Position numbers and translations under genes: made by a program
Shown here: positions 7,432 through 41,910 of the stretch, piece by piece
Layout: every line of letters starts with the position of its first letter
Position numbering within the stretch: the first letter of the stretch is position 1
Notes under the pieces: model-generated
Seen by the model: the letters and a program-made list of their open reading frames with translations, nothing else
Told to the model about the DNA's origin: nothing
The model's database searches: none
Virus record (IMG/VR): IMGVR_UViG_3300003894_000008
Span: 1-56,547 of that record
Length of the DNA: 56,547 nucleotides
Strand: one strand, 5' to 3'
Source: a virus

Positions 7432-7490
7432 AGACGATCAAACGGAAAACGTGATTTTATTATTTTATTCCGATGACGGGTCATAAGTGA

Positions 7491-11817: not shown

Positions 11818-11822
11818 ACGTT

Positions 11823-13054: not shown

Positions 13055-15127
13055 ATGAGCAACGGAAAAACCGACGCAAAGACGAAAGCGCCCATCGAGG
13101 AACAGATGCGTGCGATTGTTTATTCTTTGCAGACGCTTGCTGATGAGCAGGTGAAAAAGAAGGTTAGCACGGAAGACCGCTGGCTTGAAGATCTACAGAA
13201 TTATCATGGTCAGTATGATGCGGATACGCTGGCTAACTTAAAGGCGTCGAACAGTTCGCAGGTATTTGTGAATCTGACTCGATCAAAAACGAACGCTTGG
13301 GAAGCGCGTCTTTCAGACATGCTGTTTCCGACCGATGATAAGAACTGGGGCGTTAAACCGACGCCGGTTCCTGAGTTGGCTCAGGCGATTCAACGGGGTG
13401 ACGACACCGCACCTGATGAACATGCGGTAGCAGAAACTTCATCGAAAGCGATGGAGATTGAAATTGAGGATCAGTTTCGCGAGTGTCGTTACAACATAAA
13501 ATCGCGTGACATCATTCGCGACAGTTGTGTGCTTGGTTCCGGCATTATGAAGGGGCCGCTCACGTCTGAAAAAATGAAGCGCAAGTGGGTCGCTCCGCAG
13601 GAGGGTGGAGCGTTCGAGTTGACGCAGGTTGCAGATCCTGCGCCGAGCATGGAATGGGTTGATCCTTGGAATTACTTCCCTGACATGAACGCTCGCCGCA
13701 AGGGTGAGGAGGAATTTGAGTTCGAGCGCCACCTTCTGAACAAGAAGAAGATGCGCCAGCTTGCGAAGCGCCCAGGATTTTACAGGGACGCCATTCGCGA
13801 GATTCTGAAAGAAGATGCGGCGGAAGGCTTGCCTTCTTACGTTGCCCAGTTGAAGGCGATCACGGGCAGCGGCGAAACGATTGATCAGCGGTATCATGTC
13901 TGGGAATACCACGGTCCGATATCCGGTGAAGATCTGAAGTTGCTGTGTGAATGCCACGGCGAAAATGAGATGGCGAAAGCCTATGAGGATGATCCGCTTG
14001 AAGAGCTGAACGTGATTGTTTGGTTTTGTCAGGGCAAGATCCTGAAGTTTGCCGAGCATCCGCTCGACAGTGCCGAGAGCATGTACAGCGTGTTTAATCT
14101 GGAAAAGGACGACAGTTCCATTTTCGGTTATGGCGTGCCGTACCTGATGCGGAACAGCCAGAAGGTTATCAACTCTTCATGGCGCATGGTTCTGGACAAC
14201 AGTGGCCTTTCGACGGGACCGCAGGTTGTTGTGAACAACCAGATGATTGAGCCTGCTGATGGCGACTGGAAGCTGACGCCGCGCAAGTTGTGGAAGGCCA
14301 AGAACAAGAGCAATATCCCGATGGATCATGCTTTCAAGGTCTATCACATTGACGGCAGGCAGGAGCAATTGCTTCGCGTGATTGACGTTGCAAAGAGCTT
14401 TGCTGACGAAGAGACGAACCTGCCGTTGGTTGCGCAGGGCGAAAGCGGCTCGCACCAGACGCAGACATCCGGTGGCATGTCGATGCTGATGAACAGCGTC
14501 AACGTGGTTTTCCGGCGCGTTGTTAAGAACTTTGACGATGACTTCACCACGCCGAACATCCGGCGCATTTACGACTGGAACATGCAGTTTTCACCGAAGG
14601 AGCACATCAAGGGTGACTATGCTGTTGATGCTCGTGGTTCGAGCGTTCTCCTGGTTCGTGAAGTGCAGGCGCAGAACCTGATGCAGATCTTGGTTCAGTT
14701 CTCCGCGCATCCGGTGCTTGGTCCTTTGACGAAGGCTGCGAGCGGGTATCGCCAGATGGCGCAGGCTCACATGCTATCGGCTGACAGTCTGGTTAAGACT
14801 GATGAGGAACTGGAACTTGAAGCGAAGCAGGCGGCAGAAAATCCGCCTCCGCCAGATCCGGAAACAATGAAGATTCAGGCGCAGATGGAGCTTTCCAACA
14901 TGGAGTTGGAGGGCAAGATTGCGCTGGCAGAGATGGATCGCGAGACGAAGCTTATGGCTCTTGCGGCACAGAACGATATGCGGCTTGAAGATCTGCGCAC
15001 CAAGCTTGGTATGCACCAGATCGCCATCGACTCCAAGGAGCGTATGGAGCAGCACAAGACGGCTTCCAAGGAGCGGATCTTTGCTGCCGAAGCTGGCATG
15101 AAGCAGAAATACGGTGAGGGCATCTAA
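13055..15127 (+). CDS. Portal protein, 690 aa
   Basis: The dodecameric DNA gate at the head vertex. Length and context (directly after the large terminase, before scaffold and capsid) fit a podovirus portal of the P22/Sf6 type. The N-terminus (TEDRWLEDLQNYHGQYD) and central DDSSIFGYGVPYLMRNSQKV are typical. The last 120 residues are a long charged Met/Gln-rich coiled coil, as in the barrel region of P22-type portals. The stop overlaps the next start (TAATG). Confidence 0.88.
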   Translation: MSNGKTDAKTKAPIEEQMRAIVYSLQTLADEQVKKKVSTEDRWLEDLQNYHGQYDADTLANLKASNSSQVFVNLTRSKTNAWEARLSDMLFPTDDKNWGVKPTPVPELAQAIQRGDDTAPDEHAVAETSSKAMEIEIEDQFRECRYNIKSRDIIRDSCVLGSGIMKGPLTSEKMKRKWVAPQEGGAFELTQVADPAPSMEWVDPWNYFPDMNARRKGEEEFEFERHLLNKKKMRQLAKRPGFYRDAIREILKEDAAEGLPSYVAQLKAITGSGETIDQRYHVWEYHGPISGEDLKLLCECHGENEMAKAYEDDPLEELNVIVWFCQGKILKFAEHPLDSAESMYSVFNLEKDDSSIFGYGVPYLMRNSQKVINSSWRMVLDNSGLSTGPQVVVNNQMIEPADGDWKLTPRKLWKAKNKSNIPMDHAFKVYHIDGRQEQLLRVIDVAKSFADEETNLPLVAQGESGSHQTQTSGGMSMLMNSVNVVFRRVVKNFDDDFTTPNIRRIYDWNMQFSPKEHIKGDYAVDARGSSVLLVREVQAQNLMQILVQFSAHPVLGPLTKAASGYRQMAQAHMLSADSLVKTDEELELEAKQAAENPPPPDPETMKIQAQMELSNMELEGKIALAEMDRETKLMALAAQNDMRLEDLRTKLGMHQIAIDSKERMEQHKTASKERIFAAEAGMKQKYGEGI

Positions 15128-16305: not shown

Positions 16306-17301
16306 ATGACCACGACTGCTTATGGCGATATTAGCCAGCGTACCGCTGCCTACGCCGCAAAAACGATGCTGTCTCACGCCGAGCCGGTATTGATCCTTCA
16401 GAAATTCGGCATGACGAAGCCGGTTCCGAAGAACACCGCGAACAACGTTAAGTTCCGTCGCCCTGTTCCGTTCTCCGCTGAGACGACTCCGTTGGTTGAA
16501 GGCGTTACGCCGACCGCCCAGCAGATGTCTTACGAAGATGTCTCTGCCACGCTGTACCAGTATGGCAAGCCCATCGAGATCACGGATCAGGTTGCCGATA
16601 TGTCGGAAGATCCTGTTCTTAAGGATGCCGCCATGCTGGCTGGCGAGCAGGCTGCTCTGACCACTGAAATGGTCACTTACGGCGCAGTCAAAGCCGGAAC
16701 GAGTGTTTTCTATGCTAACGGCTCCGCCCGTACATCTGTCAACACCGCGATCTCGCTGAATAAACAGCGTGCCGTGACTCGTTCGCTCAAGGCTCAGAAG
16801 GCCAAGAAGATCACCAGCATCCTTGATGGTAATGTCAACTACAACACCACGCCGATTGAAGCGGCTTATGTTGCTGTTGCTCACACCGATCTGGAAGCTG
16901 ACCTTCGCGGTCTGACCGGCTTCACGCCTGTTGCCGAATATGGTAGCCGCAAGCCGATCTGTGCTGAAGAAATCGGTTCTGTTGAAGACGTGCGCTACGT
17001 CCTCTCTCCGGAACTGTCTCCGTTCCAGGCTGGCGGTTCCGCCACTCTGAACGGCATGGTCGCTGATGACTCAACGAACGTTGATGTATATCCGGTCCTG
17101 TTCTTCGGTCGTGAGGCCTTCGGTGTTGTTCCGCTTAAGGGCGCGAACTCCATGACGCCGATGGTGATCAATCCTGGCACTCCTTCGAAGTCTGATCCTC
17201 TGGGTCAGCGCGGTTACGTTTCTTGGAAATGTTACCACGCTGCCGTGATCCTGAACCAGACTTGGATGGCTCGTTTGGAAGTTGGCGTTACCGACCTGTA
17301 G
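16306..17301 (+). CDS. Major capsid protein, N4-gp56 family, 331 aa
   Basis: Matches the N4-gp56/P22-type capsid family by its N-terminal KFRRPVPFSAETTPLVEGVT, followed by QMSYEDVSATLYQYGKPIEI, and AAYVAVAHTDLEADLRGLTGF. HK97-fold capsid subunit expected. AAAGGAAAC precedes the ATG. A strong intrinsic terminator follows (17328-17355), as is usual after the most abundant virion gene. Confidence 0.9.
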   Translation: MTTTAYGDISQRTAAYAAKTMLSHAEPVLILQKFGMTKPVPKNTANNVKFRRPVPFSAETTPLVEGVTPTAQQMSYEDVSATLYQYGKPIEITDQVADMSEDPVLKDAAMLAGEQAALTTEMVTYGAVKAGTSVFYANGSARTSVNTAISLNKQRAVTRSLKAQKAKKITSILDGNVNYNTTPIEAAYVAVAHTDLEADLRGLTGFTPVAEYGSRKPICAEEIGSVEDVRYVLSPELSPFQAGGSATLNGMVADDSTNVDVYPVLFFGREAFGVVPLKGANSMTPMVINPGTPSKSDPLGQRGYVSWKCYHAAVILNQTWMARLEVGVTDL

Positions 17302-19309: not shown

Positions 19310-19314
19310 TCATA

Positions 19315-19740: not shown

Positions 19741-19741
19741 T

Positions 19742-20419: not shown

Positions 20420-20422
20420 GCA

Positions 20423-24861: not shown

Positions 24862-24863
24862 AA

Positions 24864-25040: not shown

Positions 25041-25049
25041 GTCAGTGAC

Positions 25050-25666: not shown

Positions 25667-25677
25667 GGGGCGTGACA

Positions 25678-26028: not shown

Positions 26029-26042
26029 ACGGAGAATAACAA

Positions 26043-26663: not shown

Positions 26664-27118
26664 TGATCAGGGTCGCGCTTTTTTCGGACATCCCGCGCTT
26701 GTGTGAGTTGCTGGATGAGATGCACGCTCGCAGTAAGTATGCGGAATACCCTGTCAGCAAGAAGAGGTTTAAGGATCTTTGTATGGAATCGATCCGTTCA
26801 GGCAATGGCTGCTTGTTCGTGGTTGAAAAGAACGAGGTTGTCGAGGGCTTCCTGATTGGAACTATGGACAACCTTTACCATGTCCTTCGCGTGAAATACG
26901 CGACGGATCTCTTCTTCTATATATCTGAGCGCACTCAGTACGGGGCGCTTGGGTTGATCAAGGAGTTTATTGACTGGGCGTTATCAAAGCCGGATGTGGT
27001 TTCGATACGCATGGGCGCAACCGATGCCATCGAGAACTTTAATAGGGTGGCGAAATTATACAAACGAAAGGGCCTTGTTCAAGAAGGCGTCATGTATGAA
27101 ATGAGGATTGAGCGATGA
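26663..27118 (+). CDS. GNAT-family acetyltransferase, 151 aa
   Basis: The N-terminus (MIRVALFSDIPRLCELLDEM), the central VEGFLIGTMDN and the C-terminal VSIRMGATDAIENFNRVAKL followed by YKRKGL fit the GNAT acetyl-CoA fold, with the last segment as the usual GNAT C-terminal helix. The Q/RxxGxG/A loop is poorly conserved (ERTQYGALG). Such genes are often found between internal virion genes in this phage type; the substrate is unknown. Confidence 0.8.
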   Translation: MIRVALFSDIPRLCELLDEMHARSKYAEYPVSKKRFKDLCMESIRSGNGCLFVVEKNEVVEGFLIGTMDNLYHVLRVKYATDLFFYISERTQYGALGLIKEFIDWALSKPDVVSIRMGATDAIENFNRVAKLYKRKGLVQEGVMYEMRIER

Positions 27119-27927
27119 GCGGAGTTTTTAAATCTGTAAAGAAGGTTTTCAAGAAGGTGGCAAAGGTCGCTAAGAAGGTTGCGCCTGTGGCAATTGCCGC
27201 TGGTGCCATCTACATGACAGCAGGCATGGCTCTTGGTAGCACGGGAATGATTCCTGGCTTTGGCCCAGGAGGCGCGGTCAGTGGATGGCTTAATAGTTCG
27301 TCGGGCGGCATAATGAGTAGCGTCTTAAAGGGCGCGGTCAAGCAGGCCAGTTATGGCGCTTTGATTGGTGGCGCAACGGCGGCTGTTACCGGCAATGATA
27401 TCGGTAAGGGTGTCATGCTTGGCGCGGCTGGTGGTGCTGTTACAGGCGGCATTACAGGCGGCTTGACGCATACGCCTACGACAAATCCCGCCGTCGCCGC
27501 TCCTGTTCCTGCCGGTCCTGGCGGCGCACCTGCTACACCCGCCACCCCGACTCCTCCTGTTGCTGGTGCCGCTCCCACTTCGACTGTGGCATCCACCCCA
27601 TCAACCATTGCGGAGTGGTTGAACTCTCCGACCGGCGCTGAAATGGCTGGCGGCTTAGTCAGTGGCGCTGCCAAGGGTGCAGGCGCTTATTTCGGTTCTG
27701 TTGCGGAAGCTGAGGCAATGGAAGAGGCCGCTAGGCTGGACATGGAAAAGGATCGTCGTGCTCGCGAATCCATTAACGCCAATTACGGCGGTGTCGGTGC
27801 TGGCCTTGTGAACACGACAAACACTGCACCGGCTGCTCCATCGCCACTACCGGCGAACACGCAGACATATACGCAAACCATGTGGCGCTACGATCCTGAG
27901 CAGGGCCGCATTGTAAAGATCGCATAA
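27115..27927 (+). CDS. Glycine-zipper internal virion protein, 270 aa
   Basis: Starts with a Lys-rich amphipathic helix (VFKSVKKVFKKVAKVAKKVA), then a membrane-prone Gly/Ala region (about residues 25-125) with GLIGGATAA- and GGAVTGG-type zippers, then a Pro/Ala linker and a polar C-terminus. This looks like a protein that inserts into or crosses the host membrane during DNA ejection. No catalytic motif. Overlaps the upstream gene by ATGA. Confidence 0.75.
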   Translation: MSGVFKSVKKVFKKVAKVAKKVAPVAIAAGAIYMTAGMALGSTGMIPGFGPGGAVSGWLNSSSGGIMSSVLKGAVKQASYGALIGGATAAVTGNDIGKGVMLGAAGGAVTGGITGGLTHTPTTNPAVAAPVPAGPGGAPATPATPTPPVAGAAPTSTVASTPSTIAEWLNSPTGAEMAGGLVSGAAKGAGAYFGSVAEAEAMEEAARLDMEKDRRARESINANYGGVGAGLVNTTNTAPAAPSPLPANTQTYTQTMWRYDPEQGRIVKIA

Positions 27928-27942
27928 CGTAAGGACGGAATA

Positions 27943-28464
27943 ATGCAACAGCAAGGACTCATTAAGCAGCAAGATCCAGTCGCTCCTGAAGTCGGCTATC
28001 AAGGCGAGCCGAACGTCACGCCGGAAGAGCAGGAACTGTATGATCAGGTGGTAGATAATGCCTACCAGATTATCTACGATCCCAAGACCACAGAAAATTT
28101 GCTGTCACGCATATCGCAGAGCGGCAATCCCGTTGAGGGTCTGGCGAGCGTTGCATTCATGGTTGTTACGACTTTAGAGAATAGTGCCGATCAAGCGGGA
28201 ATGCCTATTCCACAGGATGTCTTGTTTCATGCAGGTATCGAGATCCTTGAGGAAATAGCGGAGTTCGCAGAAGAGAAGGGGGTTCACTCCTTTTCTGATG
28301 AAGAGATCGAGCAGGCTTTGTTTTCCGCGCTGGATATGTACGGCGCACAAGCAGAGAGGTCTGGCAAAGTTGACAAGGAATCGGCGCAGGCGGAGTTTGC
28401 CGCTATCGAGAAGGCCGATAAAGACGGGACGCTCAAAGAGCAGATTCCCCAGTTAGGAGCGTAA
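27943..28464 (+). CDS. Virion-associated helical protein, 173 aa
   Basis: Acidic, helical, with VTPEEQELYDQVVDNAYQII and QDVLFHAGIEILEEIAEFAE, a pattern seen in small proteins encoded among internal virion genes of podoviruses. Its place between two ejection-type genes supports a structural role. GGACGGAA lies upstream of the ATG. Confidence 0.7.
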   Translation: MQQQGLIKQQDPVAPEVGYQGEPNVTPEEQELYDQVVDNAYQIIYDPKTTENLLSRISQSGNPVEGLASVAFMVVTTLENSADQAGMPIPQDVLFHAGIEILEEIAEFAEEKGVHSFSDEEIEQALFSALDMYGAQAERSGKVDKESAQAEFAAIEKADKDGTLKEQIPQLGA

Positions 28465-28466
28465 TC

Positions 28467-29429
28467 ATGGCTGGTCTTGGTGCATTTATGGGGAGAACAC
28501 TCGCAGGCGCTGCCGAGGGTGCTGGCGAAGCCCTAAAGCGGCGCGGTGCTGTTATGCGTGAGGATGCTCGACGCAAGGAGGATCGTGATCACGCCATTGC
28601 CTTGACGGATAAAAAGATCGCTGCCGATAAAGAGCAATGGCAAGCCAAGATTAAATCTGATGACGCGCAAGCTGCTGCTGGCCTGAAAAACAAGCTTGAC
28701 CTCCTGGAAATGCAGATTCAGTCGGCGGAAAGAGAGGGTGAACTTGATCGCCTGAATAAACTGAAGGTGCAGCAAGCGGGTATTGCTGGTGAGTTGGACG
28801 CCATCAAGGAACGCAATAAGGGTGCGCTTGAGGTTGCTGACGCTAATAATACGAGCCGCGAAAACATTACGGAAATGAATAATCAGAGCCGTGAAAAAGT
28901 CGCTGATTGGGCGAATAATGTTTCTAAGGAAATTGCCAACCTTAAAATCACATCTGCCGAGAAGATGCAGGGTATTAGCCTTAAAACTAAGTCTAGTGAT
29001 CTTATGGCTGAAATTTCTGCAAAGAAAGAAATGCTGCAATCCCAGCTAGAGGCGGAAGCGGATAATCTGGATCAGAAAATTGTTGCTGAATGGAAACAGA
29101 CGATCCAGAAACTTGCGTCTGCTGAACGTCAATTGGCTAAGAAGCTTGTATCCGCAGACAAGGATCGCACATCTAAGGAAGCCATGAACCGAGAGAATAA
29201 CGCGGTGGAGCTTGCCACGGGCGCTATGAAGGATCAGGGCTATGGCGGCAGCATGGACGCTCCCACGATGGGCGGCTTGTTCCAAGGTGCCAAGAAGGTT
29301 CTTGAGGGTGGTGAAGTTCCTCCTGCCGAAACGCCGCCTGCCAATTTAGTGCAGGAAGGCAAGGTGACGACATTTAAAAACGGCGAAAGCTGGACAAAGA
29401 AAGACGGTAAACTTTTAAGGGTTAATTAA
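28467..29429 (+). CDS. Coiled-coil internal virion protein, 320 aa
   Basis: After a Gly/Ala-rich N-terminus, residues about 25-240 form a nearly continuous Lys/Glu/Ala/Gln coiled coil. The C-terminus (FKNGESWTKKDGKLLRVN) is a short beta hairpin. Long coiled coils in this position are typical of proteins that line the ejection channel. It lies 2 nt before the giant gene. Confidence 0.7.
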   Translation: MAGLGAFMGRTLAGAAEGAGEALKRRGAVMREDARRKEDRDHAIALTDKKIAADKEQWQAKIKSDDAQAAAGLKNKLDLLEMQIQSAEREGELDRLNKLKVQQAGIAGELDAIKERNKGALEVADANNTSRENITEMNNQSREKVADWANNVSKEIANLKITSAEKMQGISLKTKSSDLMAEISAKKEMLQSQLEAEADNLDQKIVAEWKQTIQKLASAERQLAKKLVSADKDRTSKEAMNRENNAVELATGAMKDQGYGGSMDAPTMGGLFQGAKKVLEGGEVPPAETPPANLVQEGKVTTFKNGESWTKKDGKLLRVN

Positions 29430-29431
29430 GT

Positions 29432-32400
29432 ATGGCAAACGAATGGGAAGTTATTTCCGCCGTTCCATTCGATAGTGAAAAGCATTCACTTGTCGAAAGC
29501 AATGATCCGTGGGGTATTGCCAGTGTCGAGGACATTGCCGAGGAACCAGGCCGCATAACAACGGGCGTCAGTAACTTCGGTCGCGGTGTTGCGGATATTG
29601 TTTCTGGTATACCGAAATCCGTTTCCATACAACATGCGCAGAATGCCGATAAAGCGCTATCCATCTTTGATCGCATGGATGGAGGCGAGTTGCAGCAATA
29701 CTCCCCAGCCGAAAACGATACTGCCTTCGGCTTCGAGTTGGAGTTATCACGCTATCGAAGTGGAACGCCGGAAGAGCGAGCCGAAATTCGCAAGCGCGTC
29801 CAAGATGCGCGAGATCCCAGAAACTCAGACTTGTATAAAGCTGGCAAGTGGCTTGATGATGTCGTTGCCGATGCTCTGCCCGTAAACGAAGAATATCAAG
29901 ATGAGTTCTGGGCTACAAAGTTCTCTCGTGGTCTTGGCTCGATGGTCGGCTTTACTGGCGTTGGCTTGGTTGGTCGCGCTGCTGGCTTCGGGACGCTTGC
30001 CACAACCGGCACGTCTGGTATGGCGCTTGGCTCTGTTGAGGGTTTTGAAGATGCTGTACGCAATGGCGCGTCCCTGAAAGAAGCATACGAATCAGCAAAC
30101 CTGAATGGCGTTGTTGGCGTTTCTGAAGCGCTCCCTATCAGCCGCATGTTCAAGCGCCTCGATGATCTGTCGGGCGGAACTGTTGGCACAGCCATCAAGG
30201 AGGCCGTTAAGGAAGGCACTGAAGAGGCTATTCAGGAAGCGTTCCAAACAGTCATGGGCAATGTTATTGCCAATAATGATGCTTTAGGCGTTGGCTATGA
30301 TCCTGATCGCGGCACGTTCGAGGGATCAGGCGAGGGCGCTGCTGTCGGCTTTACAACTGGTGGCGTTGTCGGCTTTATCACTTCTCTGGTGTTCGGTCGT
30401 CGCGGCGGTCATAATGCTGGCGACGAAACGCCTCCGCCTCCTGGTATTCGTGAGAACGCCGCACCAGCACCGCTGACAGAAGCGGATCATAACTCCCCCA
30501 TCCCTGACGAACTTATTCAGCGTGGCAATGAAGAGATTGCCGACACAGATGCTATTGCATCAGCGAATGAGTCGCTGTCCAGATCTGGACTCCCAGAAAT
30601 CAATACGCATGTTGATGTTGATCTTGGCGACGGTCGGGGTGCGTCTAGGGGTGTTGTTACAGACGCCTTTGAATATGACGACCCCGTGGATGTAGGGGAG
30701 AAGGTTGCAGGCGTCACGATTGAGATGGCTGATGGTCGCAAGCTGCACAAGACAGCCAGTGAAATAGCGGCTACCGGCATACAAATCACACCGGCACAGG
30801 AAGAGACGCCTGTGACGCCCTCAGAAGAGGACACAGAGGCAACTGCCCCAGAGGCACCTGTCGCCCCAGAAGCTCCTATGGAGGACGCCACGCCCTCAGA
30901 TCCGGAGCCTGACGCTGCCCAGAGCATTGATTCTGACACAACGCCCGTTAAGCCTGAGCAAACGCTCGATGATGACGACCCATATGCGCCGCTCGATGAT
31001 GACAGTCTTGGCACTGATGAGCCGATGCCGGAAGAGGCGGCGCAGCCCCTTGAGCCGCAGTTGGCAAAAGGTGAGCTACCGATTATAGACGATAGGGAGC
31101 GCCAGCGCCTTGAAAACATTAAGGCGATGGAAGAGGCGCAGAAAGATAAACCGAAAGCTATCGGTCAAAACATCGACGGCGACGACATCTTTGAGGATGA
31201 TCGCGGTGTACGCCATATTGTGCGCGACGGCTTTAAGCACACCGAAAAAGTTGGCATCAAGCCTGACGGCAGTATCAGCGTTACACGCGACGACGACACG
31301 TACCTGACTGACGATGAACGAGCGCCAGCAAAAGAAGAGCAGGTAAAGACCAGCGCTTCCGATTCTGTCGTTGAGCATTTCCGCGCAGGTGGCAAGTTCA
31401 AGAATATCGTTGAGGCTCGCAAGTTTGTTCGTGAGCGCGATGGAGAACTGGACGATAAAGCTGTCGAGGAAGCGGTTGAAGCAGGCGTTGTAAAGCGTGC
31501 GCGTGAGATCGTGGCGGAAGGCAATGACGCCTCGGAGACGTACCAGCGCCTTGTCGATCTGTATTCATCGCAGCCCAACCTTAATACCCGCACCAGCACC
31601 AGCATCGAGAATCAGGCGTATAGCACGCCTGCGCCGTTGGCGTACTTGGCGTCACATGCGGCTGGTATCGACCAGAATACGACCGTTTATGAGCCGACCG
31701 CTGGCAATGGCATGTTGCTGATTGGTGCAGATCCAAGCAAATCAACTGCCAATGAATTAAATCCAGATCGCGTCAAGAGCCTAGAGGGGCAGGGCTTTAA
31801 GCCGTCTCAGGGCGATGCGATGGAGCATACGCCAAGCGGGAAGGTTGACGTTGTTATCGCTAATCCGCCTTTCGGCAGCGTCCTGATGGATGATGGCAAA
31901 ACAAACAAAACCTTTCCCTTGAGTGGCACGACGACAAATAAGATTGATGAAGCAATCTCCCTGCGTGCACTTGAGAGCATGAAGGATGATGGTCGTGCTG
32001 TCCTGATTATTGGCAGCAAACACGGCAGGAATGTAGACAGCACGCCACAAGAAGCAGCGATCAAGTATCGCTCTGGCAGGAAGTTCTTTAAGAAACTATA
32101 TGACGGCTACAATGTGATTGACCATTACACGGTCGATGGAAAGTTGTATAATAAGCAAGGCGCTCAATGGCCTGTCGATGTAATCGTTATTGAGGGCCGT
32201 GGCGGGTCTAAGCTTGATCTGCCAATGAAGACAGCCCCACAGGTCTTGAAGTCGTGGGATGATTTAAGGAGTAAGTTAGATGGCAGCAATCGCTTGGACA
32301 CCGCCGAGCAGCAAGATGGGGATGGGAACGATTCTGTTACGGAACGGTCTGAACAAGCCCCTGACGCTGGATCATTACAGGGGGGCGCTGGCGTCGCGAA

Positions 32401-35400
32401 TCGACCGGATGATTCGGAAGGAGTCTCCGGAAGTGGCAGCGGAAATGCTGAAAATAACGGACGAGCGGGAGAACCTACGGACGGACAACAACCTGAAAGC
32501 GGCAGGGGAGATACTGGCGGAGAACAGCGACCGCCTGATGTCGATGGCGGCACCAGGAATATTCCCAATGCAGGTGACGGAAGTGGAGAACAATCCAGCG
32601 GCCCATCAAATGATGAGGGAGGAAACGCTGGAGGACTTTCTGGCGATTCTGTATCCGTAGATCCCTTTGATGACATCTTCGATAGCGCTCTGAATGAAGC
32701 GTTTGGCGAGGAAGTCGAGAAAACTGCCCCGAAGGAAAAACCCAAAGCCGGTAAAGCAGCCAAGTCTGCCGCCGTGGAAACGGCAAAGGGGCTTGATGAT
32801 GTCACGGCTGGCCTTGCTGCGTTGTTCGGCGCAGATCCTAATCGTGTAAATTCCGGCTTGTCTTTCGATAAGGATACTTATGAGAAGGCGAAGCCGCTCT
32901 TTATCGCTGGTGTATCTCACTTCAAGACGGCTGGCGCTGATGTATCAGAAATGGTTAAGGCGCTGGTTGGTCACTTGGCTACGGTTGCCAAATTGCCCCG
33001 TGAGACGATTGAGCGTATGCGCCCATACGTCAAGCAGTTCATCGAGGATGTAAAATCTGGTGTTGTAGATCTGGCAGAGAAGGTAACGCCGAAGAAAAAG
33101 GCGCAAGCCAAGAAAGAAGATCCTTACGGCCTGACGGTTCCTGAGTACATCAACGTAGACAATGTTACAAACAGGCAAGAAATTCTTGATGCTGAAGAGC
33201 AAACTGATGCTCGTGAATTTGTCGCGGAGATTGTTAAACGTAAGATCTACGAGAACTTTGAAAGCTACGATCCCGAAAGCAAAGAAAGCAAAGCTGGCAT
33301 CCCGTGGTTTTATCAAGTGCGAAAGAAGTGGGAAGACAAGTACGACTCCAATGCTGACTATGTAAGTGCAAGCTGGGAGAAAGCGCCTAAAGGCGCAGAT
33401 GCCTCTAACTCTTTTAAAGGTTGGGTGCTGGCAGATGTGCTCGCTCTTAATCAAGCCATCAAAGAATACCGCAAGCTTACGAACAAAAGGCCAGAGCGTA
33501 AGGCTCCGGAAAAAGCAACTGATCGTGTGAATGAGGAAGTCGAGACGGACTTTCAGGTTCAATATGAGCCAACATCGCAGGCACGATATGCCGTTGGCAC
33601 ACTGGTTCCCCGCAACATGCAGACAGCTATGACCAGTGCGCTTGACGAACTGAAAGAGCGTGTTGGCGATATTGATGCTTATGTTGCTGATAAACTGGAT
33701 TACAGCGTTGATGAGGTTGTTGGCACAGACAAAGCGCCAGGATACTTCTCCGCCGAGCAGGTGGACGCCCTCGCGCTGGCTATCGACAACGTAGAGAACG
33801 GCGGCGGCTTTATCGTTGGTGATCAGACCGGCGTTGGCAAAGGTCGCTTTGTTGCCGGTATGCTCAAGTACGCCATGATGCAGGGCAAGACGCCTATCTT
33901 TGTTACAAAAAGTCCAGGATTGTTCGCTGATATGGTTCGCGATATGCGCGACATCGGCATGAATGACATCAGCGATAGGGTTATGGTGACGAACAATGGC
34001 TTGCGTAATGATAAAGCTATCCCGCTCGATGCAGATAATGCCGAAGATGTCCTCTCGTCTATGTCTAATGCGCAACAGAAGAGCGCGATGGAAAAGATTG
34101 AGTCCACTGGCGAATTGCCTGATGGCTCAGATATCCTTTTCACCAACTACAGCCAGATGCAATACATCAAAGGTCAAGATAATGTTCGGATGCGTGCGGT
34201 TCAGGCGCTCGCTCCTAACGCTGTAATCGTCCTTGATGAGAGCCATCTTGCAGGTGGTAGTGATGCCCCCAGAAGGATTAACCCTGAAACGGGCGAAGCA
34301 ATGCCAACAGGCGCTGACTTTGTGCGTGAAGTTTTGGAAGAAGCTCACGGCGTCGTTTACTCGTCTGCAACCTACGCTAAGAACCCTGCCGTTATGTCGC
34401 TGTACTTTAAGACCGACATCTCTCTTGGTGTAGATAATATCGGAGACTTGGCGGAAACCATTCGCGCTGGTGGCGTGCCGTTGCAGCAAGTCGTAGCGAA
34501 CATGCTGGTTGAATCTGGTCAGTACGCAAGACGTGAGCGCTCATTCGATGGCGTGAGCATCGAGCAAAGGCCACTTCCGACTGACCATGAAGCAGCAGAC
34601 ATCGCTTCTGATGCGCTTCGCAATATCTTTACGCTCGACAAGGATCTGATGACAGAAGCGCGTGAAGCCTTCATTGAAAGCTTTGCGCAGGCAGGCGCTG
34701 AGGGCGCGACTGACAATGCTGTAGGCGAGACGGGTGCCACGCAAACCGGCTTCTCTTCTATCATGCACAACGTCATCAACCAGATGCTCTTGGCTTTAAA
34801 AGCCGAGGCGGCTGTGGATCTCGCGATAGAACTACACAAGAACGGCGAAAAGCCCATCATCGCGCTCGCTAATACGAACGAGCAAATCATGCAGGACTAC
34901 ATCAGCGACCACAACATAGCGTTTGGCGATGAGATTAACGTCCCCTTTAACACCGTGCTTGAGCGTTACGTGCATCGTCTTCGTCGCATTACGATCAAGG
35001 ATGAGAACGACGAGAAGCAGCATATCACCATGACGGATGAGCAAGTCGCTGAATATGGCGGCGCTGATGCCTTGTCTGAACTGAAGCGTGTTGAGCAACT
35101 GGTCAAGGAGGCCAACCTTTCGCACCTGCCAGGAAGTCCTATCGACTACATTGCTGGCAGACTAAAGAAAGCAGGCGTCAATGTTGGCGAGATAACGGGG
35201 CGCTCGATCATCATCGAGGACGGACGGCTTACAAAGCGAGCCGGATCTGAGGCCGAGAAAAAACGGATTATGAACGGCTACAATAGCGGCGAGTTGGATT
35301 CATTGATTATCAATCAGTCTGGCTCTACTGGCTATTCCATGCACGCAACGGACAAAGCGGGGAATGACGGCAAGCAGCGACACTTGATTGTTCTGCAACC

Positions 35401-38400
35401 TGACGGGAACATTGACGTGTTCATGCAGATTCTTGGTCGTATCCACAGAACAGGCCAGATCAAGCTTCCAAATTACACTATCGGCATATCTGACTTGTCT
35501 GTTGAAAAGCGCCTTGCCGCCGTGCTGATGCGTAAGATGGCATCCCTTAACGCCAACACCACGGCTTCTAAGGACTCTGCGGTCAGCCTGAAAGAATCGG
35601 TGGACTTCCTGAACAGGTATGGCGACGAGATCGTGCAAGAATATCTGACAGAAAATCCTGAGATCGCCTCCATGACTGACATGGAAGAAAAGGCCACTGA
35701 CGGGATAGCTGCCAAGTTTACAGGCAGGCTGGCAATCATTGAGCCGGAAGTTGTCGAAAAGATATATGACGAGATCGAGGCGAACTACGTGGCGCATATC
35801 GAGGCGCTTGACCGTATGGGGATGAACACCCTTGAAGCCAAGACACTTGAACTGGATGCCAAGACGATAGACGAGATGGAACTGGTTCCTGCTGTTGATG
35901 ATGGCGATTCTCCGTTCACGGGCGCTGCTGTTGCAGAGACAGTTGATGTCAAGAAGCTTGGAAAGCCTTTCACAGAGGAAGAATTAAAAGCTGAAGGCGA
36001 AAAAATTCTTGATGGCAAAAGCCCCAGTGATTTTGTTGATGAGCAAATCGCAGAGATCAAGGCGAAGATGCCTCCATATATCGAGACTATCGACAAAAAG
36101 ATTGATGCTGCTGAACAGCTTGGTCAGGAATTAATGCTGGAAGCTGATGCAAAAGCTGCCGCCTTAGCAGAGGCGAGGGGTGAAGAATATAACGGAGTCC
36201 ACAAAAGCACAGCGAAAGAAAGAAAAGCATCCGAGACTAAAGCGCTATGGGAACTCAATAAACGCACCGCACAAGCCAAGCTGAATGTTATTCTGGACAA
36301 GCTTGAGCAATATAAGCCAGGAAAGTCTTTGCGTATCCGTGTGGCTGATGGTGAAAATGCGCAGTATCTCTACGCTGTTTCCCTTGGCGTGAACATTAAG
36401 GGTGTGTCGCACAACCCGACTGCTGCAAGTTCGTACAAGGTTCGCTTTGCTATTGCAGATTCAGGCCGTGAAATCACGATACCTCTATCCAAGATAGTTG
36501 GTGAGGAAGCATCATATTCGACAGAGGCTGTTGATCAAAGCACAGTCCTTGGCTTCTTCCGTGACGGCTTCCATGAATCCCGCGAAACGCGGCAGATGAT
36601 CACGGGCAACCTGCTACGTGGTTACGCCCAGTTTAAGAAGGGCCAGATCGTAATGTTCACTCGTGAGGATGGCTCAATCGAGCAGGGCATCCTCATGCCG
36701 AAAGAGTTCGACACGGCGACAGAGCTAGCGAAGCAGCCCGTTGAGTTCAAGGCGGCTAATCAAGTCCTTGAGTTTTTAAGGGATGGTCTTAATAGGCGGG
36801 TTCACTCCAAAGATGAAGTGATGTCATTCACCTATGAGCGCGGCATGTATGGCGGTGCGCCTAAGTGGAAGCTGCAAGTCAAGACTCGTGGCGGAAAGTC
36901 GTACTACCTGAACAAAGCTGTTCGCAAGCTGACCGGCGATTTTGTCAAAAGAAAAGGCGTTATGAGCGTTGAGATCAAGAGCGAGAACGATCTCAGGAAG
37001 ATCTTTGATATCTACCAAGAAAACCTTGGCACACGCTACGAAACCAAGACACACAAGCCAGAGGCGCGTGCGGTTACTGGTCAGGAAATTAAGGGTGAGG
37101 ATAAAGGTCAGGAAAAATTCTCGCGCCGCGACGATCTTCGCGCAGACGTTCTCGACCGCCTGCCGCGCATCGAGGCTGAATTGCAGGAGCGCCTTAAAGC
37201 GCTTGGCCTGAGCGGGAAGATCGCGTTGCGTTTTGTTGAAGCCATCAAGGCAAGGAATGAGGATGGCTCGTTCAGCCTTGCTGATGGCGTGTATCACCGC
37301 AAGCTGATCCGCATTGCGATGGATACGCTGGACAAGACGTTCACATTCAACCACGAAATCATTCACGCCTTACGAGATCTTGGCGTGCTGCGTGACATGG
37401 AATGGCGGAAGCTGGAGCAGGCTGCGCTGGCTGACACGCAAATGATGGATCGCGTTCGCCGCGAGAATGAAGGCGCTAACCTGACGGAAGAGCAGCTTAT
37501 CGAGGAAGCTGTTGCCAATATGTTTGGTGAGCGCAACGCCCAGAATGGCGGCTTCTTTAAACGCGCAATGAAACGCATCTCTGCATTCTTCAAAGCTGTT
37601 AGGGCTGCGTTCTCCAAGGAAGGCTACAAGACTGCCGAAGACATCTTCGAGGGCATCGAGGAAGGTTATGTCGGGCGGCGCTCCGGCAAGGGGCGTGGTG
37701 GCGTAGCTGACCGCATGGCATACTCCCGCCGCTTCGAGCATGGCGTGGAGATGCCGAAGCGCGACAGCGAGGCGCGGTGGCGTGACGCAACGAACGGCGT
37801 GAGCGATGCGTCAACACTGGTTGATCGCTTGAATGAATGGTTTGACGCGGTGATCCAAGGGTTCTCGCGCCACTACAAGCACCTTCCTAACGACCGCCGC
37901 TTTGCTAACGTTAAAGAGCAGTTGCGCAAGATGGAGGCCGCGCCGCAGGCTGCGAAGGATGACATCGTGCGTATGCTCCGTGACATCACGGAAGGCATGA
38001 CACCAGCGGATCTGGATCTCTTTACTCGTAAGGTTGTCCTTGAGGATCTTCTCTGGGAAGCGCAGAACGACCACGACCTGCCATTCGGCTTAAAGGATGA
38101 AGCAGGCGTTCGCGAGGCTCTTGCCGCCGTTGACTCCGCTTTGCAGGGGCGTGCAGATCTACAGGAGAAGCTGCGCAAGAGGCAAGCGCTGTCCTCACGT
38201 ATCGCGGCGGCAATGGTTGAGGCTGGCGTGCTGACTAAAGAGCAGGTCGCCAACCCGTCATATTACCGGCACATGGTCCTCGAACATGCACGTTCGCAGA
38301 ACGCATTTGTTTCGGACGCAACCAAGAAAATTAAAAGCCCGTTCTGGTTCGCTCGCAAAGGCTCAAAGAAGGACATCAACGCGAACCTTCTGGAAGCCGA

Positions 38401-40825
38401 GTTCGACTGGATGCACAAAGCGCTTGTGGATATTCAGACAGCCAAGACGATTGAAGCTATTAAGAAGTCGAAGCTGAACATCCGCGACAAGGTGGTTGCG
38501 GCAGCTAAAAGGCTCAACGCTGAGATGATGCAGCGCTTGATCAACGAGGACATCGACAAGAACGGTTACGACAAGCTGAACTCTAAGGGTGAAGTCGAGC
38601 GCACCAGCCCCATGAATGAGCAGATGAAGGCTTATAAGCAGCAGATAGCTATGGGCCTGAACTTTGTTGCGCAGGCGCTTGAGGATAATGAGATCCGCAT
38701 CCCTGCACGCTTTGAATCCACTGTCGAGGGCTTGCTCGATAAGGATGCTGAAAGCGGTGGAGAGTTGTTCCCGTTCCTGACATGGCTTCTCGATAACGGA
38801 CTTCCAGGATCTAACGGGGCGGCTGTGGTTTACAAGGCAGTGAACGCAAGGAAAGCTTGGGTTAAGGAGTCTCTGGGATCTGATTACACAAACCCGCTCA
38901 AGATTGATGAGTTGATCGCTCGCGGCCTAGCGCCTGAAGGGTATACGTCCTGGCAACCGGAAGAAGGCAAGATCCTTTACACGGCTCAGACGCTTTCTGA
39001 ACACGCGCAACAGAAGATGTTACGCACGATCATGCAATCGCCTTCGGATTATATGCCGAAAGATATTGCTGATGTTGTAAGCGCTGAACTGAGTGATCAC
39101 CTGACTGAATCATTGGTTGTCGGTGGCGATAAATACAAGCTTATCATTCCAGAAGAACTCGCAGTGACGCTTGACAGTATGCGTGATGTGCCAGCGAGCA
39201 ATGCGCTTTCATACACAACCGGCAAGACGCTTTCAGCTTGGAAGATCTGGACGCTTATCAACCCGCGCCGCGTTATTAAGTACAACCTGAACAACCTGTC
39301 TGGCGACCTTGATGCTGTAATTGCTGGCAATCCTAGCGCACTGAAGCATATGGGGCAGGCGATCCGCGAATTGACGGACGTGATGCTCAAAGGCAATGAG
39401 CCTTCTGCACGCTACCGCGAAGCCGTTGATCGAGGTGTGTTTGATAGCGGCATGTCTATTCAGGAAGTTCCGGACATCTCCTTCCTTGGTGAGTTCGAGC
39501 ATTTGCGCGATCAATCAAATCGGCTCGACAAGCTGAGTGCACGGGCAATCAAGAAGATCTGGCGCGGCATGAAGAAGGGGACTCAATGGCGTGAGAACTG
39601 GTTGCGTTACGCTGCGTATCTCGATTATGCGGAGCGCCTTGAGGCAGGCGAAAGCATGGAATCGGTTGGGTATGGCGCTGCCATTCCTGAGATCGTTGAT
39701 AACGTTCACGACAATAAAGACAAGGCTGCGCTGCTTGCTCGTGAACTGGTTGGCGATTACGGAAATGTTTCTGAAATCGGTCAAGGGCTGCGCCGCCATG
39801 TGATGCCGTTCTATTCGTGGATAGAGATCAACACCAAGCGTTACTGGCGCTTGAACGCGAACGCATGGAGCCAGGGCGTAGCTAAGGGTGCCGCAACATC
39901 AGGCGGTCTGGCTGTCGCGAAAGGCGCACGGTTTACAGCGTGGGCATATATCCGAATGGCAATGGTCTATGGCCTTGTCTCGATGTGGAACAACCTGTTC
40001 TTTGGGGATGAAGAGGAAGAACTGGACGAAGCGGATCGCGTTCGCCTCCACATCAACCTTGGCAAGTGGGACGGCGAGATCCATACGATTAAGTTCCAAG
40101 GCGCATTGTCTGACTTTATGGGCTGGGTTGGCTTCGAAGATGCAATGACAATGTACCTGAAGATTGATGAAGGCAAGGCGGATTGGGGCGATGTCGCGGA
40201 GAAAATATACAAAGCGCCAGTCAATAGGCTGGTCAGTGCGGTACGCCCTGACTTTAAGTTGCCTGTTGAATTGCTTGGCGAAATAAGCTTCTACCCTGAC
40301 GCCTTTGAGCCGAGCAGTCTACGCGATGGATGGCGTCACACCTTCCGCACATTCTCCTTCGAGCATGAGTATGATCTTGTTGCAGGCAAGCCTTCGCGTG
40401 GATATGCGCAGTCCCTGAAGAACACGGTTGTATATACGCGAGATCCCAATGAGGTCGCTTATAATGCCGCACGCAAGCTGGCAATTGATTGGAATCAAGA
40501 GCGCCTTGGGATGTCTGGCAGTGGCGGATACCACACAGAGCGTGGCGATCTGGTTTACCAGATCAAGAAGGCGGTTCGCTTTAAAGATAAGGCTGTACGG
40601 GCTGCGAAGGAGCAGGAGCTTCGTGATCTGATTAAGCGTGATAATGCTAGTGGCCTGCGCAAGCGAACAAGCTTCGAGAAGGTTATTCAGTCATCAGTCA
40701 AAAGGGCGCATCCCCTCTATAGAATCCCGAAAGGTCTGCGCATGACGTACCTGCGAACCCTTTCGAGCGCTGACAGAAGGGCGTTAAACACAGCAATTCA
40801 ATGGTGGGAAAAGGTATATAAATAG
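29432..40825 (+). CDS. Giant ejected polyprotein: methyltransferase, SF2 helicase, zincin (DarB-like), 3797 aa
   Basis: One frame of 3797 codons. Residues 1-310 are Gly/Ala-rich and membrane-prone, like phage ejection proteins. An N6-adenine methyltransferase follows, with YEPTAGNG (motif I, near 753) and NPPF (811-814). Residues 950-1077 are a low-complexity linker. A strawberry-notch-like SF2 helicase has GDQTGVGKGR (1463-1472), DESH (1602-1605), SAT (1645-1647) and GRIHRTGQ (2002-2009). HEIIH (2641-2645) with EE at 2691-2692 suggests a zincin protease. The remainder is helical with a hydrophobic stretch near 3490-3530. P1 DarB, which is injected and protects DNA from type I restriction, has the same methyltransferase-helicase pairing, so anti-restriction after injection is the favoured inference. 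Confidence 0.85.
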   Translation: MANEWEVISAVPFDSEKHSLVESNDPWGIASVEDIAEEPGRITTGVSNFGRGVADIVSGIPKSVSIQHAQNADKALSIFDRMDGGELQQYSPAENDTAFGFELELSRYRSGTPEERAEIRKRVQDARDPRNSDLYKAGKWLDDVVADALPVNEEYQDEFWATKFSRGLGSMVGFTGVGLVGRAAGFGTLATTGTSGMALGSVEGFEDAVRNGASLKEAYESANLNGVVGVSEALPISRMFKRLDDLSGGTVGTAIKEAVKEGTEEAIQEAFQTVMGNVIANNDALGVGYDPDRGTFEGSGEGAAVGFTTGGVVGFITSLVFGRRGGHNAGDETPPPPGIRENAAPAPLTEADHNSPIPDELIQRGNEEIADTDAIASANESLSRSGLPEINTHVDVDLGDGRGASRGVVTDAFEYDDPVDVGEKVAGVTIEMADGRKLHKTASEIAATGIQITPAQEETPVTPSEEDTEATAPEAPVAPEAPMEDATPSDPEPDAAQSIDSDTTPVKPEQTLDDDDPYAPLDDDSLGTDEPMPEEAAQPLEPQLAKGELPIIDDRERQRLENIKAMEEAQKDKPKAIGQNIDGDDIFEDDRGVRHIVRDGFKHTEKVGIKPDGSISVTRDDDTYLTDDERAPAKEEQVKTSASDSVVEHFRAGGKFKNIVEARKFVRERDGELDDKAVEEAVEAGVVKRAREIVAEGNDASETYQRLVDLYSSQPNLNTRTSTSIENQAYSTPAPLAYLASHAAGIDQNTTVYEPTAGNGMLLIGADPSKSTANELNPDRVKSLEGQGFKPSQGDAMEHTPSGKVDVVIANPPFGSVLMDDGKTNKTFPLSGTTTNKIDEAISLRALESMKDDGRAVLIIGSKHGRNVDSTPQEAAIKYRSGRKFFKKLYDGYNVIDHYTVDGKLYNKQGAQWPVDVIVIEGRGGSKLDLPMKTAPQVLKSWDDLRSKLDGSNRLDTAEQQDGDGNDSVTERSEQAPDAGSLQGGAGVANRPDDSEGVSGSGSGNAENNGRAGEPTDGQQPESGRGDTGGEQRPPDVDGGTRNIPNAGDGSGEQSSGPSNDEGGNAGGLSGDSVSVDPFDDIFDSALNEAFGEEVEKTAPKEKPKAGKAAKSAAVETAKGLDDVTAGLAALFGADPNRVNSGLSFDKDTYEKAKPLFIAGVSHFKTAGADVSEMVKALVGHLATVAKLPRETIERMRPYVKQFIEDVKSGVVDLAEKVTPKKKAQAKKEDPYGLTVPEYINVDNVTNRQEILDAEEQTDAREFVAEIVKRKIYENFESYDPESKESKAGIPWFYQVRKKWEDKYDSNADYVSASWEKAPKGADASNSFKGWVLADVLALNQAIKEYRKLTNKRPERKAPEKATDRVNEEVETDFQVQYEPTSQARYAVGTLVPRNMQTAMTSALDELKERVGDIDAYVADKLDYSVDEVVGTDKAPGYFSAEQVDALALAIDNVENGGGFIVGDQTGVGKGRFVAGMLKYAMMQGKTPIFVTKSPGLFADMVRDMRDIGMNDISDRVMVTNNGLRNDKAIPLDADNAEDVLSSMSNAQQKSAMEKIESTGELPDGSDILFTNYSQMQYIKGQDNVRMRAVQALAPNAVIVLDESHLAGGSDAPRRINPETGEAMPTGADFVREVLEEAHGVVYSSATYAKNPAVMSLYFKTDISLGVDNIGDLAETIRAGGVPLQQVVANMLVESGQYARRERSFDGVSIEQRPLPTDHEAADIASDALRNIFTLDKDLMTEAREAFIESFAQAGAEGATDNAVGETGATQTGFSSIMHNVINQMLLALKAEAAVDLAIELHKNGEKPIIALANTNEQIMQDYISDHNIAFGDEINVPFNTVLERYVHRLRRITIKDENDEKQHITMTDEQVAEYGGADALSELKRVEQLVKEANLSHLPGSPIDYIAGRLKKAGVNVGEITGRSIIIEDGRLTKRAGSEAEKKRIMNGYNSGELDSLIINQSGSTGYSMHATDKAGNDGKQRHLIVLQPDGNIDVFMQILGRIHRTGQIKLPNYTIGISDLSVEKRLAAVLMRKMASLNANTTASKDSAVSLKESVDFLNRYGDEIVQEYLTENPEIASMTDMEEKATDGIAAKFTGRLAIIEPEVVEKIYDEIEANYVAHIEALDRMGMNTLEAKTLELDAKTIDEMELVPAVDDGDSPFTGAAVAETVDVKKLGKPFTEEELKAEGEKILDGKSPSDFVDEQIAEIKAKMPPYIETIDKKIDAAEQLGQELMLEADAKAAALAEARGEEYNGVHKSTAKERKASETKALWELNKRTAQAKLNVILDKLEQYKPGKSLRIRVADGENAQYLYAVSLGVNIKGVSHNPTAASSYKVRFAIADSGREITIPLSKIVGEEASYSTEAVDQSTVLGFFRDGFHESRETRQMITGNLLRGYAQFKKGQIVMFTREDGSIEQGILMPKEFDTATELAKQPVEFKAANQVLEFLRDGLNRRVHSKDEVMSFTYERGMYGGAPKWKLQVKTRGGKSYYLNKAVRKLTGDFVKRKGVMSVEIKSENDLRKIFDIYQENLGTRYETKTHKPEARAVTGQEIKGEDKGQEKFSRRDDLRADVLDRLPRIEAELQERLKALGLSGKIALRFVEAIKARNEDGSFSLADGVYHRKLIRIAMDTLDKTFTFNHEIIHALRDLGVLRDMEWRKLEQAALADTQMMDRVRRENEGANLTEEQLIEEAVANMFGERNAQNGGFFKRAMKRISAFFKAVRAAFSKEGYKTAEDIFEGIEEGYVGRRSGKGRGGVADRMAYSRRFEHGVEMPKRDSEARWRDATNGVSDASTLVDRLNEWFDAVIQGFSRHYKHLPNDRRFANVKEQLRKMEAAPQAAKDDIVRMLRDITEGMTPADLDLFTRKVVLEDLLWEAQNDHDLPFGLKDEAGVREALAAVDSALQGRADLQEKLRKRQALSSRIAAAMVEAGVLTKEQVANPSYYRHMVLEHARSQNAFVSDATKKIKSPFWFARKGSKKDINANLLEAEFDWMHKALVDIQTAKTIEAIKKSKLNIRDKVVAAAKRLNAEMMQRLINEDIDKNGYDKLNSKGEVERTSPMNEQMKAYKQQIAMGLNFVAQALEDNEIRIPARFESTVEGLLDKDAESGGELFPFLTWLLDNGLPGSNGAAVVYKAVNARKAWVKESLGSDYTNPLKIDELIARGLAPEGYTSWQPEEGKILYTAQTLSEHAQQKMLRTIMQSPSDYMPKDIADVVSAELSDHLTESLVVGGDKYKLIIPEELAVTLDSMRDVPASNALSYTTGKTLSAWKIWTLINPRRVIKYNLNNLSGDLDAVIAGNPSALKHMGQAIRELTDVMLKGNEPSARYREAVDRGVFDSGMSIQEVPDISFLGEFEHLRDQSNRLDKLSARAIKKIWRGMKKGTQWRENWLRYAAYLDYAERLEAGESMESVGYGAAIPEIVDNVHDNKDKAALLARELVGDYGNVSEIGQGLRRHVMPFYSWIEINTKRYWRLNANAWSQGVAKGAATSGGLAVAKGARFTAWAYIRMAMVYGLVSMWNNLFFGDEEEELDEADRVRLHINLGKWDGEIHTIKFQGALSDFMGWVGFEDAMTMYLKIDEGKADWGDVAEKIYKAPVNRLVSAVRPDFKLPVELLGEISFYPDAFEPSSLRDGWRHTFRTFSFEHEYDLVAGKPSRGYAQSLKNTVVYTRDPNEVAYNAARKLAIDWNQERLGMSGSGGYHTERGDLVYQIKKAVRFKDKAVRAAKEQELRDLIKRDNASGLRKRTSFEKVIQSSVKRAHPLYRIPKGLRMTYLRTLSSADRRALNTAIQWWEKVYK
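32280..32660 (+). CDS. Nested overprinted gene inside the giant ORF, 126 aa
   Basis: In the +1 frame relative to the giant gene, an ATG at 32280 has AAGGAG exactly 8 nt upstream and opens a 126-codon frame, starting MAAIAWTPPSSKMGMG. It has the look of a real protein: Leu/Met hydrophobics, charged helices (LTLDHYRGALASRIDRMIRK, TDERENLRTDNNLKAAGEIL) and a defined end (LEDFLAILYP). The giant frame over the same bases gives only low-complexity Gly/Asp/Ser. Codon use in both frames is unlike the surroundings, as expected for dual coding. No family recognised. Confidence 0.65.
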   Translation: MAAIAWTPPSSKMGMGTILLRNGLNKPLTLDHYRGALASRIDRMIRKESPEVAAEMLKITDERENLRTDNNLKAAGEILAENSDRLMSMAAPGIFPMQVTEVENNPAAHQMMREETLEDFLAILYP

Positions 40826-41910
40826 TGAGTGACATTGATGCAGCGGCAGAGGCCGTGAGATCTGGGGCGATGTCTCAACGTGCGGCGTCAAAGAAGTATG
40901 ACGTGCCACGTACAACTCTAAGGAGGCACTTAGCGCGTGCTGAGGTTCCTGACGGCTTTATGGTGAAGGGAACAAGCACGCTGGTAGATCCGAATGGAGC
41001 CGTTAAGCTGCAATGGATCAAGATGTCGGCAGATATGGAGCGGCAGAAAGCCATGCTCATGGAAACTGTCGAGGCCATGAAAGAGAGTATGCCACGTATG
41101 AAGCCGGTGAGTGCACCGAAGAAGGCGCTCGATGAACTGGTTAATACATACGTCATTACAGATTTCCACTACGGGATGCTCGCTCATTACCGTGAGGGCG
41201 GGGCCAACTGGGACTTGAAGATCGCAGAGAAAACCCTCCTTGGCTGCTTCTCGCACATGATGGCTGGCGCTCCGAATGCTAAGGTGGGGATCATTGCCCA
41301 GCTAGGGGATTTCCTACATCAAGACAGCATAGCGCCAATGACAGGCACGGTCGGCACCACACACACGGTTGATGCTGACGGACGCTTCTCTAAGATTGTG
41401 AGATCCGCGATTAAGTCTCTTCGTGCCATTGTGGATATGGCGCTGGCAAAGCATGAACGTGTTCACGTCCTGATGGCAGAGGGCAATCACGACCTATCAA
41501 GCAGCATCTGGCTCAGATCGCTATTCGCGGCGCTGTACGAGAACGAGCCGCGAGTAACGATTGATGATTCTGATCTGCCGTTTTACGCATATCAGCACGG
41601 CAACACGATGCTTGCTTTTCATCATGGACATTTGAAAAAGTTTGCCGCACTGACAAACCTTTTCGCCGCTGAGTTCGCCCAGATGTGGGGCGCGACGACA
41701 CACCGTTACGGTCATTGCGGTCACTTACATCACAAAGAATCCAAAGAGGATATGGGGATGACGATCACCCAGCACCGCACGCTCGCTGCAAGGGACTCAT
41801 TCTCTTCGAGGCACGGCTACCACTCGAACAGAGGCGCACAATGCGTCACCTACCATTCCAAGTATGGAGAGGCAGGAACAAACAACGTAACACCGGAGAT
41901 GATTCAATGA
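40825..41910 (+). CDS. Metallophosphoesterase with N-terminal helix-turn-helix, 361 aa
   Basis: GTG start at 40825 overlaps the giant gene's TAG by one base. Residues 7-37 (AVRSGAMSQRAASKKYDVPR followed by TTLRRHLA) form a psq-type helix-turn-helix. The calcineurin-like phosphoesterase core has DFHYG, LGDF, GNHD, HHGH and GHCGHLHH motifs in order, giving the two-metal site. Similar phage proteins are common and often misnamed oxidoreductase. A DNA-directed nuclease or phosphatase is possible; the substrate is unknown. Confidence 0.85.
   Translation: MSDIDAAAEAVRSGAMSQRAASKKYDVPRTTLRRHLARAEVPDGFMVKGTSTLVDPNGAVKLQWIKMSADMERQKAMLMETVEAMKESMPRMKPVSAPKKALDELVNTYVITDFHYGMLAHYREGGANWDLKIAEKTLLGCFSHMMAGAPNAKVGIIAQLGDFLHQDSIAPMTGTVGTTHTVDADGRFSKIVRSAIKSLRAIVDMALAKHERVHVLMAEGNHDLSSSIWLRSLFAALYENEPRVTIDDSDLPFYAYQHGNTMLAFHHGHLKKFAALTNLFAAEFAQMWGATTHRYGHCGHLHHKESKEDMGMTITQHRTLAARDSFSSRHGYHSNRGAQCVTYHSKYGEAGTNNVTPEMIQ

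Follow-up and report, generated by a model that had tools for sequence, protein, structure and literature searches.

A giant late gene and its neighbourhood

We analysed a window of 56,547 nt that comprises an entire IMG/VR record and whose gene content is that of a temperate, podovirus-like phage. Along the plus strand, the terminase is followed by a portal or head-tail adaptor gene (phrog_332, 13055..15127), the major capsid protein gene (phrog_1357, 16306..17301), the tail genes and finally a giant gene (29432..40825); we used the portal and capsid genes as markers of virion lineage. A CI-like repressor gene also lies on the plus strand, while the opposite strand encodes an integrase, a helicase, a Cas4-type exonuclease, a Sak4-type annealing protein, a single-strand binding protein and a primase. 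Searches for tRNA genes and Rfam families found none in the window.

Two of the virion genes are divided. The terminase large subunit gene (10161-13053) is split into an N-terminal half (10161-10949) and a C-terminal half (12307-13053), which match the large subunit of Stenotrophomonas phage StenR_269 at 48% and 54%, respectively. The halves are separated by an insert of about 1.4 kb with small ORFs and no Rfam intron, and the second lies in another frame; in record L099, the halves are nearly contiguous. A tail or 'stabilization' protein gene, present in one piece in its ctsTn925 match, corresponds to two ORFs of the window (19315-19740 and 20423-22108, within 19315-22108). A 225-aa ORF (19742-20419) is interposed at residue 126/129 of the homologue; it lacks a Pfam match and resembles part of record L020.

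The giant gene had been described in a preliminary description as standing behind ejection-type genes. By position this holds, as the three late plus-strand genes directly upstream (27115-27927, 27943-28464 and 28467-29429, together 27115..29429) are candidate ejection genes, but none of the three gave a convincing match in family searches. A homologue of the middle gene stands upstream of the giant gene in L101, a related phage discussed below, and a search for the third gene among phages that bear the giant protein's C-terminal part was empty. Also in the late operon is a GNAT acetyltransferase gene (26663-27118), whose counterparts in L101 (55%) and in Pseudoalteromonas phage Y3 (26%) likewise lie close to the giant gene.

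The giant gene opens with ATG and runs for 3797 codons with no internal stop, a run whose chance expectation is about 10^-80 at the window's base composition. We rejected a frameshift or assembly artefact because the gene is a single open frame and its homologues are mostly 3.4–6 kaa long. Its end is overlapped by a gene (40825-41910) whose product combines a Psq-type helix-turn-helix with a phosphoesterase-like domain and matches PHROG 704, 'DNA repair exonuclease' (E 6e-116).

Domains of the giant protein

An NPPF methylase, a complete set of SF2 helicase motifs and an HEIIH motif had been claimed for this one frame, and the frame, the motifs, Pfam and the homologues confirmed all of them. 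The first enzyme is an adenine-type DNA methylase with an N-terminal helical cap (residues 626-955; 31307..32296), recognised by alignment and by Pfam N6_Mtase (21.3 bits, cut-off 20.4). Its motifs are EPTAGNG at residue 754 and NPPF at residue 811 (31862-31873), the latter being motif IV, which is retained in 77 of 80 homologues. A linker rich in Gly, Asp and Asn comes after the methylase (residues 956-1120), and no folded target-recognition domain is evident in the protein.

The second enzyme is an SF2 helicase or translocase of the Strawberry-notch (SNO) type (residues 1371-2190; 33542..36001). Both Pfam families of this type score far above their cut-offs (AAA_34, 78.9 bits against 27; Helicase_C_4, 68.4 bits against 30.5), and the motifs comprise a Walker A of SNO form (GDQTGVGKGR at residue 1463; 33818-33847), DESH at residue 1602 (34235-34246) and motif VI (QILGRIHRTGQ at residue 1999; 35426-35458). 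The key motifs, including the SNO Walker A (GDxTGxGKG), are retained in 79 of 80 relatives. The region behind the helicase (residues 2191-2560; 36002..37111) is conserved together with the SNO module, according to a profile of that region and its alignment. Methylase and helicase reach up to about 50% identity in independent viral and plasmid records. The protein had no sequence match in the PDB, Pfam found neither an ArdC-type nor an LPD36 domain in it, and no LPD36 GxG[GAS] signature was seen ahead of the methylase.

The N-terminal part is less clearly defined. An iterated profile delineates a glycine-rich helical domain (residues 159-317; 29906..30382) that is common to about 36 other phage giants. 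In a leave-one-out test on about 90 proteins, it extends to the StenR_269 protein annotated as 'virion-associated RNA polymerase' (E 8e-8). This part had been called membrane-active, which is a weak label: the glycine-rich helices, modelled at low confidence, include just one strongly hydrophobic stretch (residues 302-322; 30335..30397). Next to it lies a small conserved domain (residues 322-455; 30395..30796) shared with L101, L102 and L097 (blastp E 1e-5 to 3e-13). Between methylase and helicase, there is a mobile helical domain (residues 1126-1212; 32807..33067), whose position differs in other giants.

Behind the helicase, residues 2561-2769 (37112..37738) are predicted to have the fold of a zincin-like metallopeptidase, as indicated by alignment, model and fold matches. 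The HEIIH motif (residues 2641-2645; 37352-37366) has an EE pair behind it, at residues 2691-2692 in the next helix, and the HExxH, or its H-E-H positions, is invariant in an alignment of 31 homologues. The best solved matches of the model are all metallopeptidases or their relatives (lethal factor, PPEP and IrrE/PprI types), at Z values of 5-7 that are middling and indicate the fold class only; among viral proteins, some of the best matches carry the annotation large polyvalent. The domain-wise structure prediction that the preliminary description had called for was thus informative for the zincin (AlphaFold pLDDT 85, with zincin-fold matches), but left the N-terminal region with a poor, low-confidence model (pLDDT 67).

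The remainder of the protein, its last ~1,030 residues (residues 2770-3797; 37739..40822), is an LPD38-like domain that we call the carrier. It is 41–55% identical among homologues, and its profile aligns with the LPD38 region at 94.7% in hhalign (E 6e-8), compared with at most 1.2% for unrelated control profiles; Pfam LPD38 itself gave no match.

This combination is familiar. Iyer et al. introduced the name polyvalent proteins in 2017 for phage products that unite several enzymes in one chain: they contain a methylase-SF2 dyad, a zincin and LPD domains, have late genes as neighbours and are believed to be injected (PMC5512222). The window protein brings together in one frame three unrelated activities, those of a methylase, an SNO helicase and a zincin, lies downstream of terminase, portal and capsid genes on the same strand, and carries a zincin HExxH with the glutamate in the following helix. 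Judged by its sequence, it belongs to the phage-type polyvalent proteins, a known class, and its zincin is a standard domain of that class rather than an oddity.

One carrier with exchanged payloads

We found the carrier in 29 viral contigs and in one prophage, that of Sphingopyxis flava R11H (L102). A survey of 298 genomes from the family of this Sphingopyxis genome returned only that genome and one marginal match, so the carrier is rare there. Among named phages, a tblastn search with the C-terminus matched Ruegeria phage 45A6 alone, through its zincin. A phrog_332-family portal was detected in 7 of 13 carrier phage records. About half of the carrier proteins, including those of L123 and L131, are without any methylase or helicase; in 15 of the 26 rows of the carrier tree, no methylase, helicase or zincin of the window type was recognised, some of these proteins being only 1.1–1.3 kaa long and others having unrecognised N-terminal parts.

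This distribution bears on whether the enzymes might instead act while new phage is being made, methylating progeny DNA in the producing cell ahead of its packaging, and reach virions at most incidentally. The gene does lie in the late operon, and any active late methylase would mark progeny DNA. However, a free methylase would be enough for that purpose, the fused carrier exists in many phages without methylase or helicase, and DarB-type relatives are virion proteins, gp69 of Burkholderia phage JC1 having been found in virions by mass spectrometry with 51 unique peptides (PMC9144972). We consider such a role in the producing cell quite improbable; the giant protein is probably packed in the particle and injected with the DNA.

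Where enzymes do accompany the carrier, they are of more than one kind. The payload is the methylase-SNO module in three cases (the window, L100 and L120), a DarB-type methylase-helicase in three (L097, L102 and L139) and DarA_C in one (L132). In the last, positions 2624-12760 encode a 3378-aa fusion of DarA_C (PF18789, E 7e-18) with a carrier of the window type. On the well supported branches of the carrier tree, at least three changes are needed for the SNO label and at least three for the DarB label. L100 (the same as L081) has the payload of the window with a different zincin (HExxxH).

The exchange is clearest among phages that resemble the window in their virion genes. Compared with the window giant, the proteins of L097, L102/L098 and L101 are 44–53% identical in the carrier and 36–46% in the zincin, while residues 456-2560 of the window giant gave no match to them at E<0.01. 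Capsid proteins are 62–67% (L097/L102) and 75% (L101) identical to that of the window, within a range of 58–75% for the nearest carrier-bearing phages, and portals are 43% identical in L097/L102 and 39–43% where found. By these sequence comparisons, the four form one virion lineage. In L097 and L102 the payload matches P1 DarB (BLAST: methylase E ~1e-18, helicase pieces E 1e-7 to 1e-13), and that of L102 is 43% identical to JC1 gp69 over 91%. L101, the window's nearest relative by the carrier tree, has neither methylase nor helicase. Farther away, Pseudoalteromonas phage Y3 (capsid 51%, portal 36%) holds in the equivalent slot a 3421-aa polyvalent protein with DdrB-ParB, ADP-ribosyltransferase and LPD5 domains, and in StenR_269 the slot holds the annotated virion-associated RNA polymerase. 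Hence several sorts of early-acting cargo occupy this slot.

DarB-type and DarA_C payloads on the window's own carrier support, by substitution, a virion-delivered and DarB-like role for the methylase-SNO giant. Substitution shows a shared slot and not a shared biochemical effect; the ParB, ART and RNA polymerase payloads of equivalent slots have other roles. An injected protein might instead aid genome entry or early transcription and replication, with the SNO motor pulling in the DNA, remodelling it or clearing proteins from it and the methylase marking phage DNA for the phage's own use, without countering restriction. SNF2-like motors do travel on double-stranded DNA (PMC5512222), and the polymerase in the StenR_269 slot is an early-transcription payload. 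We nevertheless regard this alternative as rather unlikely: the payloads that replace the methylase-SNO module, DarB-type and DarA_C, both belong to the P1 defence-against-restriction system, and L101 dispenses with methylase and helicase, which are therefore not required for entry.

The zincin allows a further explanation, in which the protein is an effector of host takeover or superinfection exclusion whose zincin cuts host proteins and whose methylase-SNO module acts on rival or host DNA. Polyvalent proteins have been proposed to include such effectors, and their MPTase domains may target host proteins (PMC5512222). Since the zincin adjoins the carrier and is kept through the change of payload, self-processing fits better, and we give the effector explanation very little credence.

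We hold, with moderate confidence, that the giant is a polyvalent protein in which an LPD38-like carrier and a zincin are joined to an exchangeable methylase-SNO payload, and that it is packed into the virion, ejected and used to defeat host restriction. For its working we infer a series of steps that follows a published scheme for the methylase-SWI2/SNF2 dyad (PMC5512222). The protein would be made late and packed into the head by way of the carrier, the N-terminal part or both, and would be ejected with or before the DNA. At some step the zincin would cleave the giant and release the payload. The SNO motor would then travel on the double-stranded DNA as it enters, with the methylase modifying adenines; alternatively, the complex would simply sit on the DNA. 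In either case, host restriction would fail.

A broader proposal, to which we give somewhat less than even odds, is that podovirus-like phages use the C-terminal ~1,000 residues as a general vehicle for delivering proteins. Payloads directed against restriction (methylase-SNO, DarB-type methylase-helicase and DarA_C) would be swapped on it like cartridges, with the SNO module taking over the function of DarB, and carrier and zincin together would amount to natural machinery by which large enzymes are injected into bacteria. The carrier recurs at about 30 loci with payloads of three types. Two of these types come from the P1 defence-against-restriction system, and this suggests that the methylase-SNO module, which is widespread, has an equivalent role; the pattern would make that role directly testable. 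Packaging and injection by the carrier could be assayed apart from the enzymes, using the carrier proteins that lack methylase and helicase, and one carrier prophage, in S. flava R11H, resides in a sequenced, named strain.

Comparison with known systems

Like the polyvalent proteins of Iyer et al., the window giant combines unrelated enzymes in one chain by late genes, with a methylase-SF2 dyad, a zincin and an end that resembles LPD38 by profile comparison. Strawberry-notch versions were then noted 'in a few instances' (PMC5512222), whereas we found methylase-SNO relatives in at least 306 viral contigs of IMG/VR using an alignment-based scan; a scan with the whole single protein returned nothing. 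Among 80 retained relatives, the SNO helicase is present in all 80, the methylase in 77, a zincin of the window's family in 58 and LPD38 in 50, and 41 have all four. Beyond the earlier work, the exchange of methylase-SNO, DarB-type and DarA_C payloads on one carrier is documented here. The protein itself fits the known class, and what is new is the anatomy, a shared carrier with exchanged payloads.

Plasmids carry the module as well. We found methylase-SNO relatives in 802 plasmid records, 353 of them predicted conjugative and 314 non-mobilizable, and the module is therefore not bound to virions. A Thalassospira lucentensis plasmid (L007) has a ~6,150-codon gene with the module at positions 18659-37123 of its record. 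WP_250017822 of Chroococcidiopsis plasmid pB, a 'strawberry notch C-terminal domain-containing protein', shares the methylase-SNO-post-helicase module at 37–43% identity, but it is plasmid-borne, has 2256 aa and matches neither the zincin nor the phage carrier.

Two named phages encode similar giants. Gp3 of Bacteroides phage BS-TP4 (5391 aa), whose gene directly precedes the portal gene, has the window's order of methylase, SNO helicase, zincin-like motif and LPD38; it differs in being only 28–35% identical over methylase and helicase, in its additional DdrB-ParB and inorganic pyrophosphatase domains, and in having HExxxH instead of HExxH. The 3912-aa protein of Ruegeria phage 45A6 shares the N-terminal domain, the zincin, a mobile domain of 95 residues and the LPD38 end, but its helicase lies ahead of the methylase, and the C-terminal part of that helicase resembles DarB.

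The giant had been proposed to be a DarB-like anti-restriction effector. In P1, DarB resides in the head, counters EcoK/EcoB and bears a capsid-targeting sequence of about 30 residues at its N-terminus (PMC9024508). Like the window giant, P1 DarB and the DarB-like proteins of Bcep22-like phages (JC1 gp69, PEp14 gp27 and Parlo) place an SF2 motor after a methylase of the gamma adenine type. The motors, however, belong to different families: a DarB-type helicase profile matches DarB, PEp14, L097 and L102 but not the window giant, which is matched by the SNO profiles. The profiles of zincin and carrier do not match P1 DarB either, and it matches the window giant only weakly, in the methylase part (E=0.005). 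We rejected the designation of P1 DarB homologue because the helicase families differ. At the NPPF site of gamma adenine methylases, P1 darB (L095:10469-17236) reads NVPF, and P1 DarB may be an inactive methylase; its relatives L102 and PEp14 keep NPPF. The DarB-type proteins of P1 and JC1 occur in virions (PMC9024508, PMC9144972). The proposal thus stands in part: the giant is not a member of the DarB family, given its SNO helicase and weak methylase match, but its methylase-helicase module is plausibly DarB-like in role, since phages of the same lineage (L097/L102) bear a DarB-type module on the shared carrier, which in another phage bears DarA_C.
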